IMG/VR virus record: IMGVR_UViG_3300023180_005138
Span: 1 to 64,000 of that record
Reading direction: 5' to 3' (one strand)
From: a virus
DNA: 64,000 bases
Shown: positions 5,545 through 25,861 of the stretch, piece after piece
Position numbering within the stretch: the first letter of the stretch is position 1
Layout of the letters: the number at the start of each line of letters is the position of its first letter
The notes under the pieces: generated by a model
What the model was told of the DNA's origin: nothing
Databases searched by the model: none
The model's input: the letters and a program-made list of their open reading frames with translations, nothing else
Position numbers and translations under genes: made by a program

Positions 5545-6361
5545 TTTCCTTTCCTCCTGTAGACGCCTTTACCGTCTTATGAGTATAGTCCCAAAGTTTT
5601 TTCCTTCTCCCCTCTTTCACCATCTCAATAACTGCTGTTTCTATTGCTTGTCTAACAGCATAATTTACAGGCTCATTCGTGCTAGTCCCAGCTTCAACCT
5701 CAATTACTTTTGTACCCATATCATAGAACTTAAACACATTTAAGCCTACATTACAACTTAATATTGTTTTTTCGGTTGTAATAGTAAGTAGTACTTCTCC
5801 TGTAAGAACACTAATAACGCGTAATCCTACAGTAACAACGTCCATTCTCCACTCAGTTTGAGGTCCTATCCCTAGTAGTCTAATTCCTGCTCCACCAGTT
5901 TGTTTATTTGAGTCATATCCTACCACACCACCCTCAATCAGTATTCCTGCAAACTTAAGAGGAGATAGCTGTTTTGCTTTCTCTCCCTCAAAACTCTGTC
6001 TGGTGTTTCTAATTAGTTGTCTTTCTTTAATTAACGCCTCAAGACCCCCTCGCTCTACAACTTTAAAAAATTTTCCATCAGATATATCCATTAAGGCTTT
6101 TATTAAATAAACTTCTGCTCCTTGAGTAACTGCGCTACTTAAATTTGCAATATTATCCGCTGGTTTTCTTTGTCCAGTTAAATCTTTAAAACTGTAAACA
6201 GCTACTACCACAGGCTTACCTTTTATAGACGCAAAATCTCTTAATCCTGCTTTAAGAGGAGTAAAAGAAACAGAAGCAGGAGCTGGTTCCAACAAGCCCT
6301 GATGGGTTACGCAACCATTTAAAAATATAGCTAGAACAGCTACTCCTAATATCCGCATCAT
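5531..6361 (-). CDS. csgG: CsgG-type curli secretion pore lipoprotein
   Basis: 276 residues. A lipoprotein signal peptide ends FLNGC, with Cys17 the predicted lipidated residue. The body follows CsgG: VVVAVYSFKDLTGQRKP, an ALMDISDGKFFKVVERGGLEAL segment, KERQLIRNTRQ, LIEGGVVGYDSN, a GGAGIRLLGIGPQTEWRMD membrane hairpin region and a C-terminal VRQAIETAVIEMVKEG helix. Length equals that of bacterial CsgG (about 277). CsgG forms a nonameric outer-membrane channel that exports curlin subunits. csgF precedes it and a curlin-like gene follows, the order of an export operon, although CsgE, CsgC and CsgD are not visible. A host-acquired gene used by a phage, either to secrete amyloid or as an outer-membrane pore at lysis, is inferred. 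Confidence 0.93.
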   Translation of the reverse strand: MMRILGVAVLAIFLNGCVTHQGLLEPAPASVSFTPLKAGLRDFASIKGKPVVVAVYSFKDLTGQRKPADNIANLSSAVTQGAEVYLIKALMDISDGKFFKVVERGGLEALIKERQLIRNTRQSFEGEKAKQLSPLKFAGILIEGGVVGYDSNKQTGGAGIRLLGIGPQTEWRMDVVTVGLRVISVLTGEVLLTITTEKTILSCNVGLNVFKFYDMGTKVIEVEAGTSTNEPVNYAVRQAIETAVIEMVKEGRRKKLWDYTHKTVKASTGGKENEKE

Positions 6362-9793: not shown

Positions 9794-10912
9794 CTATCCT
9801 AATTGATACTCTCTTACAGGTATTCTCTCCATATCAAAATTATTTAAATTTAAATAATTAGACCTTCCTATCTCTTTAACAATAGGAATAACTATACTAT
9901 CATTCCACAAATTCATTAAATTAGGAACATATTTTCTCATATGTTTATACACTAAAGAATCTTCATTATCACAAACATCAGATCTAAGATCATTTCCTAA
10001 TCCTGTGGGTTTTACTGCTTGCCATCTTTGATCAAACGGTAGTCTACAAGCCGCTTCTAAATGTTGTCTAATTGATCTGCCATCTTTTAGTATACTAGTT
10101 TCTTTATCGTTTAATCCTCCCAACACTTTATTTGTTGGAAGATTATACTCTTCCCAATAATTTTTAACTAAATAACACTGTTTTACATGTAATTTAGGTA
10201 GATCAGGGCTAGTAAAAAACCACTCTCCTGCTAAAGCAGCTGCGATTCCCCAGCCGCTTAATTTATTATACCAAGTTCCGTTTCTAACTGTTAGTACGGG
10301 TTTGTTCTCTCCATAGATTTGTCCAACATTGCCCTTCGCGTATATCTGACTATGGTTATACTCAGCGAAATCATAAGCCCCAAATCTTCTTATCATACCT
10401 ATGGTTCCATTAAAAGCGGTACCTACCCAACGATCTTTATTACAAAAATCAGTTATTATTTTTTCGTCTACGTGATTAATTGTAACTTTAGTTCCGGGCA
10501 TAAATCTAATATAGGTTTTTACTTTTTGAATAGCTAATTCTATATCTAGCAGGGCGGGGTCATTATTATTAAAACAGATTCGATTTATAACAATTTCGTC
10601 TAAAAAAGTTCTACTTTTTAGAAAACTTTGTAATACAGTTTCTGAGTCCGATCCTCCACTATAATATAAAATTAAATAGTCGTACTTATCTCTAAGTTGT
10701 CTACATCTTTCATCTAATAAATCTAAATAATTTTCTGTAGGCTCGTGGGACCAATCTACAGAATCCCAAAAACCACCGTCGTGAATCACTTCTAAATTAC
10801 TAAGAGTTTCTTTACTTAGTGCAACTTGTAACTTAGTAGAGTATATTTTTTTAGTAGTTTTACTGTGAACTTTAACTCTATCATCGTTTTGGACATGAAA
10901 TAAGTTTCTCAT
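9794..10912 (-). CDS. PP-loop ATP pyrophosphatase-like protein (copy 1)
   Basis: 372 residues. The PP-loop signature SGGSDS is at residues 85-90 after a YLILYY strand, so it should bind ATP and adenylate a substrate. It is not QueC, TilS or asparagine synthetase by its remaining motifs. It is clearly paralogous to the product at 18676-19749: both share HDGG/HDGQ-W, LDERCRQLR/LINRCRQLR, FNGTIG/FNGSIG and WFFTS/WFYTS...VKNY. In both arms the gene is paired head-to-tail with a DegT-family aminotransferase (here sharing one base at 10912). A joint role in making an amidated or amino-modified metabolite or sugar is inferred. Confidence 0.75.
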   Translation of the reverse strand: MRNLFHVQNDDRVKVHSKTTKKIYSTKLQVALSKETLSNLEVIHDGGFWDSVDWSHEPTENYLDLLDERCRQLRDKYDYLILYYSGGSDSETVLQSFLKSRTFLDEIVINRICFNNNDPALLDIELAIQKVKTYIRFMPGTKVTINHVDEKIITDFCNKDRWVGTAFNGTIGMIRRFGAYDFAEYNHSQIYAKGNVGQIYGENKPVLTVRNGTWYNKLSGWGIAAALAGEWFFTSPDLPKLHVKQCYLVKNYWEEYNLPTNKVLGGLNDKETSILKDGRSIRQHLEAACRLPFDQRWQAVKPTGLGNDLRSDVCDNEDSLVYKHMRKYVPNLMNLWNDSIVIPIVKEIGRSNYLNLNNFDMERIPVREYQLG

Positions 10913-12042
10913 TATAAAGAATTAGAAACCTCTATCATAATATCCTTATTTTCATCTGTTAAATACTCATGAAGGGGAAGAATAACTAATTCTTTTGCTA
11001 GTCGTTGTGCATATGGATACTCAACAGAGTCATAGTCAGAAAAACAAGGCATGTCAGGAAAACACGGATAAACACTAACACCTATTCCAACTTTTTTAAA
11101 CTCTCCTGCCGCTTCTTTTGCACTCATTTTAGAAGGAAAGAATCCAAATCCTGTACAAATATTATTTTCGCCAGTTAATCTTTCTTGTAGAATTTCTTTC
11201 TCAAATAGCTTATTATTTGCTCTACGCTGCTCTCTAACATCATTTTCTATTAGTATATCAATATCCTCTGCTATAATACGAGCAGTAGTATCGTCCATAG
11301 AACTTTTAGATGCAGGAGCAACAAACCCGTTTCTATTTTTATTGAATCCTTGCTGAGTTACTTCTTTCATATCATCTATTAGACGCTTACTAGAAGTGGC
11401 AACTGCCCCTCCTGTACCAGTGCTTGCTGGGTGTTTAGCAATATCAAAACTATAACAAGAAATATCTGCGTATCCCGGTTTATTACCTCCATCATTCATG
11501 TAGAATGCATTAGCAGCATCTTCAACAATCCACACATTTTTTGGGGCTATATTAGAAATCATTTCTACGTCTTGTACCCTTCCTAATAAATGAACGGGCA
11601 TAACAACCTTTGCAGTTGGAAATTTATCTAGAGCCTCTGCTAGACTATTAGGGCACATCATGGCGTCAGGTCCGTTATCACAGAATATAATTTTTCTGTT
11701 TATCCATAAAATGTTTTCAGGAGTAGCAATAAATCCCCAAGCGGGAATAATAACTTGATCACCTGGTTCTGTAGTTACTGCAAGTGCCGCTTGTATAGCA
11801 TCACTACCACAGTCAGTAAAATGCCAATGGTTAATTCCACTATGAAGTGTACATTTATTTGCTAAAGCGGCTCTACTAGGAGTATAATAATCGCTACTAG
11901 GCCCCGCACTTAGCCAGTCTGAGATAGTGTCTAGTCCTAATTCGTAGGCTTTTACATATCTATCTTTATATCTCTCGATTCTCTGTTTATATGCAAAATA
12001 TGGTACGTTTTGATTCTGATATTTATCTGGTATATCAACCAT
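10912..12042 (-). CDS. DegT/DnrJ/EryC1-type PLP aminotransferase (copy 1)
   Basis: 376 residues, fold type I. The PLP Lys is K203 in SFDIAKHPASTGTGGA; the cofactor-contacting VEDAANAF is at 173-180, and FTDCGSDAIQ (76-85) fits the phosphate-binding loop. The family transfers amino groups to keto sugars of nucleotide-activated glycans. It is paralogous to the product of 19749-20855 (both have H/YW-FTDC-DA-Q and the YSFD-K signature). It pairs with a PP-loop gene and ends in EVSNSL. A dTDP-keto-sugar substrate is possible because FdtA and RmlB are encoded in the other arm. Confidence 0.85.
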   Translation of the reverse strand: MVDIPDKYQNQNVPYFAYKQRIERYKDRYVKAYELGLDTISDWLSAGPSSDYYTPSRAALANKCTLHSGINHWHFTDCGSDAIQAALAVTTEPGDQVIIPAWGFIATPENILWINRKIIFCDNGPDAMMCPNSLAEALDKFPTAKVVMPVHLLGRVQDVEMISNIAPKNVWIVEDAANAFYMNDGGNKPGYADISCYSFDIAKHPASTGTGGAVATSSKRLIDDMKEVTQQGFNKNRNGFVAPASKSSMDDTTARIIAEDIDILIENDVREQRRANNKLFEKEILQERLTGENNICTGFGFFPSKMSAKEAAGEFKKVGIGVSVYPCFPDMPCFSDYDSVEYPYAQRLAKELVILPLHEYLTDENKDIMIEVSNSL

Positions 12043-13790: not shown

Positions 13791-13820
13791 ATAAAAAAGG
13801 GGGTGCAATACGCACCCCCC
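13791..13820 (-). terminator. intrinsic terminator after hsp20
   Basis: On the minus strand an 8-bp perfect stem (GGGGGTGC/GCACCCCC, 13799-13806 with 13812-13819) closes a 5-nt loop and is followed by a run of six Ts. It lies between the hsp20 stop codon and the next gene, so it should end the heat-shock gene transcript. Confidence 0.9.
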
Positions 13821-13836
13821 TCCTCCTTAAGTTTAT

Positions 13837-14268
13837 TTACTTAATTGTAATTAACTTAGGCTTTTTCCCTTCTGGAATAATTCGCTCAAGCTCTACCGTG
13901 AGCATACCATTCGAGTACTCAGCGTCATTTACTACAATATCGTCTGCTAGAGTAAACTTTCTAGTGAACTTTTTAAAGGAAATACCTTTATAGATAGTAT
14001 CTGTTGCTGTGTCAACTCCTTCATAAGTAGAACGAACTGTTAGAACTCCATCAGCTACTTCAACCTCTAAGTCCTTTTTAGAAAGACCAGCTACTGCTAG
14101 GTCGATAAAGTATTTTTGTCCCTCTTTACGAATATTGTAAGGTGGGAACCCTGTAGACTGAGACTGATGCTGTGTGTATGTCATCAGCTGATCGAATAGA
14201 CGATCAAAACCTACAGCGTAGGGGGTTAGACGATTTACGTCAAAAAGTGATAGTTGATTGCTTACCAT
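13837..14268 (-). CDS. hsp20: Hsp20-family small heat shock protein
   Basis: 143 residues from the ATG at 14268, which has AGGAG seven bases upstream; a longer start would run through that site. The alpha-crystallin domain covers about residues 40-130: PPYNIRKEGQKYFIDLAVAGLSKKDLEVEV, then TVRSTYE, FTRKFTLADDIVV and NGMLTVELER. It ends with a Pro-Lys tail (KPKLITIK). Small heat shock proteins hold unfolding proteins without ATP; related genes are common in large marine phages. The 5' leader carries a ROSE-like thermometer (14276-14319), a candidate promoter lies at 14390-14418, and a terminator follows the gene, so it appears to be a self-contained unit. Confidence 0.93.
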   Translation of the reverse strand: MVSNQLSLFDVNRLTPYAVGFDRLFDQLMTYTQHQSQSTGFPPYNIRKEGQKYFIDLAVAGLSKKDLEVEVADGVLTVRSTYEGVDTATDTIYKGISFKKFTRKFTLADDIVVNDAEYSNGMLTVELERIIPEGKKPKLITIK

Positions 14269-14275
14269 TGTATTT

Positions 14276-14319
14276 CTCCTATTAAGCAAGATTTATTTGG
14301 GTTTCCATTAGGCAAACCC
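14276..14319 (-). promoter_or_regulatory. ROSE-like RNA thermometer in the hsp20 leader
   Basis: On the minus strand the Shine-Dalgarno AGGAG (14276-14280) can pair with CUUGCU (14285-14290) through a UAAU loop: C-G, U-A, U-G, bulged G, C-G, U-A. This is the conserved U(U/C)GCU anti-SD with unpaired G that defines ROSE elements. A second hairpin lies just upstream (14299-14306 with 14311-14319, eight pairs and one bulge), as in multi-hairpin ROSE leaders. Heating would melt the weak SD helix and allow translation. Confidence 0.7.
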
Positions 14320-14324
14320 TCTGG

Positions 14325-14369
14325 TTAGTTAATTTCTAATAATTTGTTGACTAATTTTTCAGTAGTCAT
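14325..14369 (-). CDS. possible 14-codon leader ORF upstream of hsp20
   Basis: An ATG at 14369 with GGAG eight bases before it opens a 14-residue frame (MTTEKLVNKLLEIN) that ends just upstream of the thermometer hairpins. It may be chance, or a translated leader that affects leader folding. Confidence 0.25.
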   Translation of the reverse strand: MTTEKLVNKLLEIN

Positions 14370-14429: not shown

Positions 14430-15293
14430 CTATTTTTGGATAGCAGGTGACCAGTGTGTTGTTCTCTTATCATCAAGAACAATTCTTTCAATAGGGTTTC
14501 CATAGGGATCTTCTTTTTGAGAATAAACCATTACCCCTATTCTAGACTTCATCATATCATCTGCTTTAGACGGAAAAGCTACATAGTCACCTTGATTATT
14601 GTATAAATCAGAATAATTTCTAATGGTTGCACCACCAGACTCAAGTGAATTTTTAAGTACAGTTTTAACTGATTTGTATAGTCTAAGAAGTTCTTTTTCT
14701 GAGCAGCTACCCACTGTACGGTGAGGAGCCAAAGCCGATAAAAAAAGAGACTCAGATTTATATATATTTCCAACACCTGATACATTTTTTTGTTCCATTA
14801 AAAATTTTACTAAAGAGCTGTTTTTTCGCTTTTCGCATATTTGTAACCAAGTTTCTTCGTCACAAGGTTCATTTAACATATCTGGACCAATTTCAGATAG
14901 TTTTTTATTTAAATGTGTCTGACAGTCGGCACCCGAAAAAAATTTAAGAGTGCCAAAGTTACGCATATCGGAATAGTATACAGAAAAACCGTCATTAAAG
15001 TCCCAACGAACTCTTGCATATTTATTATCTTCTGTTTTATAAGTACCTGTCATACCCAGTGTACTAAATATAACTCCAGAGCTAGTAATCCAATAAATAA
15101 ACTTACCTTTATTGTTAACTCCAAGTACTTTTTGAGGCTCTTCGTTAATTGTATAGTCTAAATATTCTGTAAACCCGTCAGGTTCTTTTTTGAGATATCT
15201 TCCAGTTAAAATTTCTATATTTGAGATAGTCTTTCCATTTATAACGGAATGTAACTGTCGTGCTACTATAGTGCACTCCGGTCCTTCTGGCAT
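14430..15293 (-). CDS. Fpg/Nei-family DNA glycosylase lacking zinc-finger cysteines
   Basis: 287 residues. The start MPEGPE supplies the catalytic N-terminal Pro and Glu, and NNKGKFIYW carries the conserved Lys. The helix-two-turn-helix is at about 165-190 (NVSGVGNIYKSESLFLSALAPHR). The C-terminal zinc finger is present in outline (VYSQKEDPYGNPIERI...RTTHWSPAIQK) but all four Cys ligands are replaced, while the DNA-contacting Arg is kept. It is therefore a zincless finger, as in some eukaryotic and viral Nei proteins. The enzyme removes oxidised bases. The gene lies upstream of hsp20. Confidence 0.9.
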   Translation of the reverse strand: MPEGPECTIVARQLHSVINGKTISNIEILTGRYLKKEPDGFTEYLDYTINEEPQKVLGVNNKGKFIYWITSSGVIFSTLGMTGTYKTEDNKYARVRWDFNDGFSVYYSDMRNFGTLKFFSGADCQTHLNKKLSEIGPDMLNEPCDEETWLQICEKRKNSSLVKFLMEQKNVSGVGNIYKSESLFLSALAPHRTVGSCSEKELLRLYKSVKTVLKNSLESGGATIRNYSDLYNNQGDYVAFPSKADDMMKSRIGVMVYSQKEDPYGNPIERIVLDDKRTTHWSPAIQK

Positions 15294-24832: not shown

Positions 24833-25066
24833 GTGTCGCAAAAATCATATAAAATAACTATAATGCTAAAGAGAGGAATACTCGATAACGCAGGAAAAGC
24901 GACAACTAAAGCTTTAAATAATTTAGGGTTTAAAACTGTAGAAGATGTTAGAATTGGAAGATGCATCTATCTTACTACAGACAAAGATATTGAACCCATA
25001 GCTCAGTCTCTTTATAATAGTGTTATGGAAGAGTATGAAGTTAAGTGTCTTGATGACGTAGACTGA
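24833..25066 (+). CDS. purS: PurS subunit of FGAM synthase
   Basis: 77 residues from GTG at 24833, chosen because AAGGGG lies six bases upstream. The pattern YKITIMLKRGILDNAGKATTKALNNLGF, VEDVRIGRCIYL and NSVMEEYEVK matches PurS (about 80 residues). With PurL and PurQ of the host it makes the enzyme that converts FGAR to FGAM in purine synthesis. Phage-encoded purS is known from cyanophages. Its stop codon abuts the acceptor piece of the tmRNA. Confidence 0.9.
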   Translation: MSQKSYKITIMLKRGILDNAGKATTKALNNLGFKTVEDVRIGRCIYLTTDKDIEPIAQSLYNSVMEEYEVKCLDDVD

Positions 25067-25451
25067 AAACTGAACTGGACCGGGGGGCAGTACCCCGCGC
25101 CTCCACCATAAACATATGAAGGAAAAACAATGGATTGGTTTACAGCAGATTTAATACATGCAATGAACGAGACATCGTGGGTCGATGGCATTGGAACCAT
25201 TGTTGTTCTACTTGGTGCTTACTTTGTATACAAGTGGATTAACAATAAATTCAAATAATCGTGTGTTTATGATGGGGGCGAAATAGGATCGACAGGCAGA
25301 TAATAGGAAAGCCGAGAGACAGGTGCGCAAGCGACCTTAACCGCAAGAAAATCAATAAATGCAAACGATAATTTCGTAGCATCTGAGAATTATGCACTAG
25401 CTGCATAATCTTTCTGGGGTTCGGTAGGTTCCTAGCAACAGAATACCTACC
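25062..25451 (+). ncRNA. ssrA: circularly permuted two-piece tmRNA precursor
   Basis: The acceptor piece (about 25062-25108) ends ...GCGCCTCCACCA. The coding piece begins GGGGGCG at 25274. These pair as a 7-bp acceptor stem with G-U at the third pair, the alanine identity element, and discriminator A. The tag frame at 25361-25408 encodes ANDNFVASENYALAA then TAA, a normal ssrA tag with a degradation-signal end. The coding piece closes in a GGTAGGT/ACCTACC hairpin (25423-25451) containing CCTAGCAACAGAA, as I recall from alphaproteobacterial forms. Acceptor-before-coding order with a 165-nt intervening segment is the permuted, two-piece architecture. It would rescue stalled ribosomes and tag proteins during infection. 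Confidence 0.93.
25130..25258 (+). CDS. 42-residue membrane peptide encoded inside the tmRNA intervening segment
   Basis: An ATG at 25130 with GAAGGA about eight bases upstream opens a 42-codon frame ending at 25258, 15 nt before the coding piece. The peptide has a polar N-terminus (MDWFTADLIHAMNETSW), one membrane helix (about 19-36, DGIGTIVVLLGAYFVYKW) and a basic tail (INNKFK), so N-out or N-in single-pass topology. The whole frame lies between the two mature tmRNA pieces. Intervening segments are normally short and non-coding, so the arrangement is odd. Confidence 0.6.
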   Translation: MDWFTADLIHAMNETSWVDGIGTIVVLLGAYFVYKWINNKFK

Positions 25452-25465
25452 ATTTTGAGGGACAA

Positions 25466-25861
25466 ATGTTATACGAAATCTTAAAATTTCCTACTGTTTC
25501 TGATGACAGAGGCAATCTAACCTATATTAATAATCTTGAACAAATTCCTTTTGAAATTAAAAGAATGTTTACTGTTGATAGCGTCCCTGCCGGAGCTGTC
25601 AGAGGCGGTCATGCACATCATCAGCTTCAAGAAGTCTTAATTCCAATTTATGGAAGATTTATCGCTTATTTATCAGACGGAAAAACATCAGAAGAAGTAG
25701 AGATGATTAATCCTAGAACTGGTTTATTATTATATCCTCATATTTGGAGAGAAATAAAAGGGTATACAAAAGGAGCAATTTGTTTATCTCTTTGCTCTAT
25801 GACTTTTGATGAGTCTGACTATATTCACACATGGGAAGAATTTAAAAAAATATATGTCTAA
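25466..25861 (+). CDS. fdtA: FdtA-type dTDP-keto-hexulose 3,4-ketoisomerase (cupin)
   Basis: 131 residues. RGNLTYINNLEQIPFEIKRMFTV, then VRGGHAHHQLQEVLIPIYG and LYPHIWREIKGYTKGAICLSLCS match the FdtA/WxcM cupin family, with the HAHH active-site cluster. It isomerises dTDP-4-keto-6-deoxyglucose (the RmlB product) to a 3-keto sugar for transamination by a DegT enzyme. RmlB is encoded next (8-nt overlap) and DegT enzymes in both arms, so the core route is present. Confidence 0.88.
   Translation: MLYEILKFPTVSDDRGNLTYINNLEQIPFEIKRMFTVDSVPAGAVRGGHAHHQLQEVLIPIYGRFIAYLSDGKTSEEVEMINPRTGLLLYPHIWREIKGYTKGAICLSLCSMTFDESDYIHTWEEFKKIYV

Follow-up and report, generated by a model that had tools for sequence, protein, structure and literature searches.

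The hsp20 leader of the window

The window, which is the whole stretch of 64,000 nucleotides that was analysed and a portion of a 117,378-base IMG/VR virus record, carries on its minus strand a gene for a small heat shock protein (Table 1). The product matches the Pfam family HSP20 (PF00011, 1.3e-16) and PHROG 432, annotated as Hsp20; the nearest NCBIfam models are IbpA and IbpB, both of which score below cut-off. The nearest relatives of the DNA polymerase encoded by this record, at 41% identity, belong to enterobacterial phages of about 100–114 kb, which we take to be T5-like. The gene directly upstream of the hsp20 leader resembles that of formamidopyrimidine-DNA glycosylase, a base-excision repair enzyme, and its N-terminal, H2TH and C-terminal Pfam domains all score above cut-off. 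Elsewhere, the window contains an aminotransferase gene and a permuted two-piece tmRNA of the alphaproteobacterial type (RF01849, 117 bits; RF04321, 116 bits), the tag of which is given by ARAGORN as ANDNFVASENYALAA. Two-piece tmRNAs are already in print for marine phages, Melnitz being one example (excerpt of PMC9004378).

Table 1. Features of the window discussed in the text, in window positions; bulged bases stand in square brackets
Feature	Positions	Strand	Description	Basis
DegT/DnrJ/EryC1-type aminotransferase	10912..12042	-	sugar or surface modification gene	
Intrinsic-terminator-like hairpin and T run	13793..13825	-	directly 3′ of hsp20; 15 pairs, 7 GC	
hsp20	13837..14268	-	IbpA-like small heat shock protein, 143 aa	profile searches
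hsp20 codons 1–5	14254..14268	-	contain UAAGCAA, complementary to anti-SD UUGCUUA (alternative SD-exposing fold)	prediction only
hsp20 start codon	14268..14266	-		
Shine-Dalgarno (SD) of hsp20	14276..14280	-	AGGAG	sequence
Hairpin 2 (SD hairpin, proposed thermosensor)	14275..14291	-	UCUU[G]CU-UAAU-AGGAGA; bulged G 14287 faces the SD	sequence, comparison
Hairpin 1	14299..14319	-	GGGUUU[G]CC-UAAU-GGAAACCC; 8 bp, one bulged G (14313)	sequence, fold, covariation
14-codon ORF	14325..14369	-	own GGAG	
Formamidopyrimidine-DNA glycosylase-like gene	14430..15293	-	directly upstream of the hsp20 leader	
Permuted two-piece tmRNA	24986..25499	+	alphaproteobacterial type	

Read 5′ to 3′ on the minus strand, the leader consists of hairpin 1 (GGGUUU[G]CC-UAAU-GG-AAACCC when spelled out), seven unpaired bases (AAAUAAA), hairpin 2 and the start codon. 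Each hairpin has one bulged G that follows a pyrimidine in the 5′ arm. In hairpin 2, the SD is engaged by the succession C-G, U-A, U.G, bulged G, C-G and U-A. An earlier note on this DNA had claimed that AGGAG is paired to CUUGCU with the G bulged and that a second hairpin stands upstream, and the window sequence bears out both points: the two-hairpin leader 5′ of hsp20 is real. Hairpin 1 was also considered as a transcriptional terminator and rejected, for it is followed by no U run and a terminator-like hairpin is found after hsp20 instead. The 14-codon ORF ends 5 nt short of hairpin 1. A different reading frame enters the matching place in the related loci L001 and L003, and the ORF could possibly be a leader peptide or have arisen by chance.

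Comparative evidence and placement of the element

The phage comparison comprised 102 records, namely the window, 80 IMG/VR loci (the best 80 of 486 protein relatives) and 21 annotated isolates drawn from the 494 phage records that matched hsp20. A signature of the SD hairpin, defined as an anti-SD motif at most 45 nt from the hsp20 start and then AGGA, with UUGCG also allowed, was present 5′ of hsp20 in 100 of the 102 records (84 with UUGCU, 15 with UCGCU and one with UUGCG). The two records without it were L044, the contig of which begins 17 nt before the start codon, and Vibrio phage PWH3a-P1, an isolate in which hsp20 is present and the element absent. Among controls taken from the same loci, the signature was found at 5 of 201 other ORFs, and in the window at 2 of 39. 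This comparison (100/102 vs 5/201) is the decisive support for the conclusion that hairpin 2 is beyond chance.

The core of hairpin 1 (G-CC..GG) is conserved in 69 of 75 distinct leaders. The exact core is lacking in the other six (L039, L040, L070, HTVC115P, P-RSM1 and PWH3a-P1), and a variant hairpin occupies its position in L070, HTVC115P and P-RSM1. In a swap test anchored solely on this core, the seven outer pairs were standard in 84.9% of cases within their own sequences and in 49.3% when the 3′ arms were swapped between sequences, the maximum of 2000 swaps being 57.3%. All four Watson-Crick types occur at pairs 2–5, i.e. the changes are compensatory. In the structural alignment A6, 93.7% of the cells were paired, compared with 76.9% after shuffling, and the covariation score was 0.447, against 0.126 ± 0.010 for shuffled and at most 0.063 for slid versions; these counts lean toward structure because A6 was fitted to the hairpin structure. 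Hairpin 1 covaries strongly in these data. In contrast, covariation in the core of hairpin 2 is weak because this core hardly varies. Replacement of the U.G beside the bulge by C-G occurs in 13 of 73 leaders, and outer pair 4 showed a pairing of 0.849 vs 0.734 when swapped. Inspection by eye of hairpin 2 in S-RSM4 showed GUC[G]CU with AAGGAC, both sides being altered.

Covariance models were used to locate the element. Since stems of unequal length were out of register in the MAFFT alignments (A1–A3), model R1 was built from four leaders that share one layout (A4), and model R2 from the R1 matches. With R1, which was made from four other leaders, the window site scored 25 bits (E 0.0024 in 375 kb) and the hsp20 leader was recovered in 67 of 75 phage sources; there were 71 matches in all, four of them elsewhere. 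A second R1 search, the source of A6, covered 59 of the 76 sources used in the initial one, weak or odd ones having been left out. R2 matched 27 of 30 phage records and its best site was always the hsp20 leader, a result with large training overlap, as many of the searched phage leaders were among the 58 on which R2 was trained. This best site lay 3–5 nt before the annotated hsp20 start in 18 of 21 isolates and on the hsp20 leader in 9 of 9 IMG/VR records. The next-best sites in the 30 records had E values of 0.198 or worse, which means essentially one strong site per genome. HTVC115P, S-RSM4 and PWH3a-P1 were missed by the standard search; laxer filters gave a weak match in HTVC115P (17.9 bits) and one of 31.5 bits in S-RSM4.

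Further, IMG/VR DNA was scanned with a pattern made of hairpin 2 and a start codon, without protein information, which yielded at least 80 matches in 79 further loci. Profile searches assigned the genes behind them: among the 80 matches listed, 73 lie before hsp20, three before dnaK, one before groES and three before something else. This near-exclusive placement before chaperone genes indicates that the leader belongs to chaperone genes. Assignment was confirmed for DnaK in L232 and L248 and for GroES in L237, and the dnaK of L203 was assigned from its N-terminus only. The motif accompanies dnaK at 5626–7565 in L232, a contig of unproven phage origin, at 708–735 in L248, which also carries a gene matching the phage ATP-dependent DNA ligase family, and at 1143–1170 in L203. 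L237 (10752–13251) contains groES-groEL and hsp20, with the hairpin 2 pattern before each unit and few phage-like neighbours, and may be bacterial.

SAR11 bacteria are hosts for some of these element-carrying viruses. The bacterial set consisted of the best 80 of 589 hsp20 relatives, mostly from Pelagibacteraceae single-cell genomes and 45–52% identical, and R2 matched directly before hsp20 in 78 of these 80 Pelagibacteraceae and related loci, with 28–61 bits. Of the remaining two, L117 gave a weak match and L141 is cut at the contig end. When R2 was run with strict filters (E<=0.01) on 142 alphaproteobacterial and 200 Pseudomonadota genomes, sites were found in 11 and 2 of them, respectively, so that the sequence family is not general in bacteria. 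These sites correspond to 14 places: seven before hsp20, two before dnaK, one before rpoH and four without an assignable gene. Genomes G010 and G014 had already supplied known loci, so that L184 and L185 repeat earlier sites and L195 stems from a genome already represented. The return of bacterial heat-shock genes by a model trained on phage leaders is the best evidence here for a role in the heat-shock response. In alphaproteobacterial genomes, the rpoH site lies at 1484–1535 of L188 (minus strand) and the dnaK sites at 1501–1561 of L190 and 1501–1557 of L195 (the latter on the minus strand); they may be thermometers of this kind that control DnaK and the heat-shock sigma factor.

The earlier note had also proposed that a phage copy would act independently of host sigma factors. 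Promoters of the RpoH type, for which we assumed the consensus CTTGAAA-N11..17-CCCATATA, were sought upstream of hairpin 1 with a threshold of at least 12 of 15 positions. Matches were obtained in 22 of 74 phage leaders, with Mosig, HTVC008M and S-CRM01 among the named phages, in 67 of 76 Pelagibacteraceae-type leaders and in 1 of 199 control ORFs; E. coli ibpA scored 13. With 22/74 phage leaders against 1/199 controls, independence of host sigma factors is unsupported as a generality. The window leader itself has no such match, reaching 8 of the 15 positions of the presumed consensus. Transcription appears to vary among carriers, many relatives adding an RpoH-type promoter match, and the AT-rich −10 of these matches could in part act as a T4-type late promoter.

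Predicted folding and alternative readings

We consider it highly probable that the leader acts as a ROSE-like RNA thermometer and keeps translation of the phage-encoded small heat shock protein repressed. Hairpin 2 would, at growth temperature, pair the SD with the U(U/C)GCU anti-SD strand, and this pairing would lead to poor ribosome binding. The SD helix would be weakened by the U.G pair and the bulged G, and warming or heat stress would open hairpin 2 while hairpin 1 remained closed. Hsp20 would then be made at once, the mRNA being already present. We infer from this scheme that the SD is sequestered in the cell and released by heat, which would constitute the temperature response. The benefit to the phage would be that phage or host proteins are protected during infection under thermal or folding stress, and ocean phages probably switch the chaperone on when the cell is heat-stressed.

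Hairpin 1 alone folded better than all but one of 200 shuffles (z −2.64), and the energy of hairpin 2 alone was unremarkable in the same kind of comparison. For the window leader alone, the predicted probability of an unpaired SD was 0.07 at 5 °C, 0.15 at 25 °C and 0.43 at 50 °C, and that of the SD helix was 0.82 at 5 °C and 0.47 at 42 °C; hairpin 1 was predicted to be stable over 5–50 °C (0.97 at 50 °C). These values agree with the proposed opening of hairpin 2 on warming. The addition of 30 nt of coding sequence lowered the predicted probability of the SD helix to 0.26 at 5 °C. The SD helix at low temperature, the lack of which the earlier note had named as a refutation, is hence formed in silico in the leader alone and largely lost in the longer RNA. 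In the latter, the anti-SD strand pairs with codons 2–5 and SD openness was 0.53–0.72 at every temperature, so that a plain energy model predicts no repression in the full context. Across 74 leaders with coding sequence, mean SD openness was 0.39–0.61, resembling that of 150 control ORFs (0.43–0.57). The E. coli ibpA thermometer, folded by the same method, kept its SD closed at all temperatures with an opening of 0.05–0.10 only, and because almost no opening is predicted for it the method is a poor yardstick. Minimum-energy folding was dropped as proof, being undecided with the coding sequence and failing for E. coli ibpA, the control.

The predicted fold between the anti-SD and codons 2–5 may represent the on-state of a switch with two states, or it may be an artefact that arises when free RNA is folded. 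The former would make the leader bistable: the anti-SD strand would choose between the SD (off) and the first hsp20 codons (on), in a two-fold switch and not by simple melting, with the balance set by temperature or co-transcriptional folding. We regard this as rather unlikely. In the window, UUGCUUA fully complements UAAGCAA, and the minimum is predicted to be this duplex at both 20 °C and 37 °C and the SD helix at 10 °C. AAGCA or AGCAA is found in the first codons of 21 of 75 hsp20 genes and 9 of 240 controls. Duplex energies of −5 kcal/mol or lower were predicted for 47% of 58 phage hsp20 starts, compared with 23% in a synonymous null, and for 81% of 21 Pelagibacteraceae-type starts, compared with 21% in the null; among 240 control ORFs, the share was 24%. 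Against such a switch, the nulls are inflated by related sequences, the mean duplex energy of the phage set (−3.98) is barely apart from that of control ORFs (−3.88), 39 of 73 distinct leaders have at most three consecutive Watson-Crick pairs, and the codons would be cleared by translating ribosomes.

A second alternative to the thermometer is a translational operator bound by a protein, for example by a phage repressor similar to RegA or by an RNA-binding protein of the host, in which the hairpins would be recognition elements without direct heat sensing. The regA gene lies directly upstream of hsp20 in S-CRM01, S-RSM4 and ACG-2014f, and the strong conservation of the hairpin 1 core is as expected of a binding site. 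However, the element is shared by Pelagibacteraceae, the window phage and jumbo phages, the genes that follow it include hsp20, dnaK and groES, no other strong site was found in the 30 phage records searched and the core matches the ROSE motif, all of which makes an operator very improbable. The least credible reading is that of constitutive hairpins that stabilise the 5′ end of the mRNA next to a coincidental SD complement, as 5′ hairpins can do, as the predicted stability of hairpin 1 at 5–50 °C would allow and as has been suggested for Pseudomonas ibpA hairpin I (excerpt of PMC3669281), since it leaves unexplained the near-invariant bulged-G anti-SD and its tie to heat-shock genes.

Evolution and comparison with known RNA elements

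A 67-row tree of hsp20 places the window inside a clade of IMG/VR viruses (12 rows, 100/100) that is nested in a wider set with four bacterial-catalogue rows. The ten cyanophages in the tree form a separate clade, and HTVC008M and Mosig join an alphaproteobacterial gene. Given the starred branches, the label must change at least three times to account for the phage isolates. Many deep branches are poorly resolved, and L104, counted as bacterial, could be a viral contig that was binned with bacteria. The gene and its leader have likely been exchanged together and repeatedly between phages and alphaproteobacteria. A bolder proposal, which we regard tentatively as a serious possibility, is that hsp20 and a ROSE-like thermometer, often with an RpoH-type promoter, might be a portable cassette swapped as a unit with SAR11-type hosts by unrelated marine phages, among them T4-like cyanophages and pelagiphages, jumbo phages and a phage whose DNA polymerase is T5-like. 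The phage chaperone would then follow the host heat-shock response twice, in transcription and in translation, and dnaK and groESL on some viral-catalogue contigs would use the same leader.

The element represents a structured RNA family outside the cut-offs of Rfam 15 that occurs in ocean cyanophages, pelagiphages and Pelagibacteraceae and is tied to chaperone genes. If temperature is sensed, one can directly predict, and test, how much chaperone phages make in warming water, and there is a regulatory explanation for hsp20, which is present in 494 records of the phage collection.

A covariance search with the Rfam ROSE models, which the earlier note had proposed as a check of its ROSE-like reading, gave no match over cut-off in the 30 phage records: RF00435 (ROSE) was absent from all 30 at E<=10, and RF01832 (ROSE_2) reached at best 15 bits against a cut-off of 65, its weak matches including one on the hsp20 leader of P-SSM4 (13.9 bits). 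At gathering threshold, Rfam returned nothing at the window locus or in the 20 of the 80 IMG/VR loci and the 7 of the 80 bacterial loci that were scanned, and a permissive scan gave chance-like matches only. What stands of that reading is the anatomy, which extends far beyond this phage: U(U/C)GCU faces the SD, a G is bulged, a stable hairpin lies upstream and a heat-shock gene, hsp20, follows. The likeness to ROSE is thus one of structure, since the element escapes the Rfam ROSE models. The manA motif RNA (RF01745) was considered because this structured RNA of marine T4-like phages has some copies before ibpA genes (excerpt of PMC2864571), and was rejected; it was found in 6 of 27 phage records, in each case away from the hsp20 leader, and has a 192-position structure.

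In the excerpts seen of the open-licence PubMed Central literature, we found no thermometer on a phage hsp20 and no ROSE-like element in a phage. In these excerpts, the RNA thermometers described for phages amount to a handful of single cases, namely lambda cIII, SPbeta blyA and Caudoviricetes sigma70, the latter two being of the fourU type (excerpts of PMC4166951, PMC11182007 and PMC11342760). Like the present element, these are temperature-responsive leaders of phage genes, but they have other structures and genes, and as described there none is ROSE-like or placed on a chaperone. A ‘possible RNA thermometer’ is mentioned for SAR11 strain HIMB5 in an excerpt of PMC6429828 that does not give the gene, so that the host element may have been noticed before.

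Among cellular systems, ROSE of the rhizobial hspA type (RF00435) likewise has an SD motif with a bulged G and precedes a small heat shock gene, and differs in having three to four hairpins (excerpt of PMC3669281). The E. coli ibpA element (ROSE_2, RF01832) is alike in its two hairpins, both of which carry one bulged G in the 5′ arm, in the pairing UCUC[G]CU..AGGAG over the SD and in the control of ibpA. The two are unlike in that the sequence models do not cross-match, E. coli ibpA reaching just 10.2 bits with R2 (the ibpB leader, at 2405–2459 on the minus strand of L103, outranks it with 15.2 bits, E 0.18), in the extra lower pairs beneath hairpin 2 in the Rfam model and in the carrier, which here is a phage. 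The ROSE-like thermometers of Pseudomonas ibpA share the leader of about 60 nt, the two hairpins, U(U/C)GCU facing the SD and the position before ibpA; the gene is cellular, and the likeness is one of layout. There, heating opens hairpin II while hairpin I stays closed, and removal of the G opposite the SD tightens repression (excerpt of PMC3669281). In conclusion, the element of the window is real, widespread and apparently unannotated and, to our knowledge, represents a known, ROSE-like kind of regulatory RNA in a new carrier.
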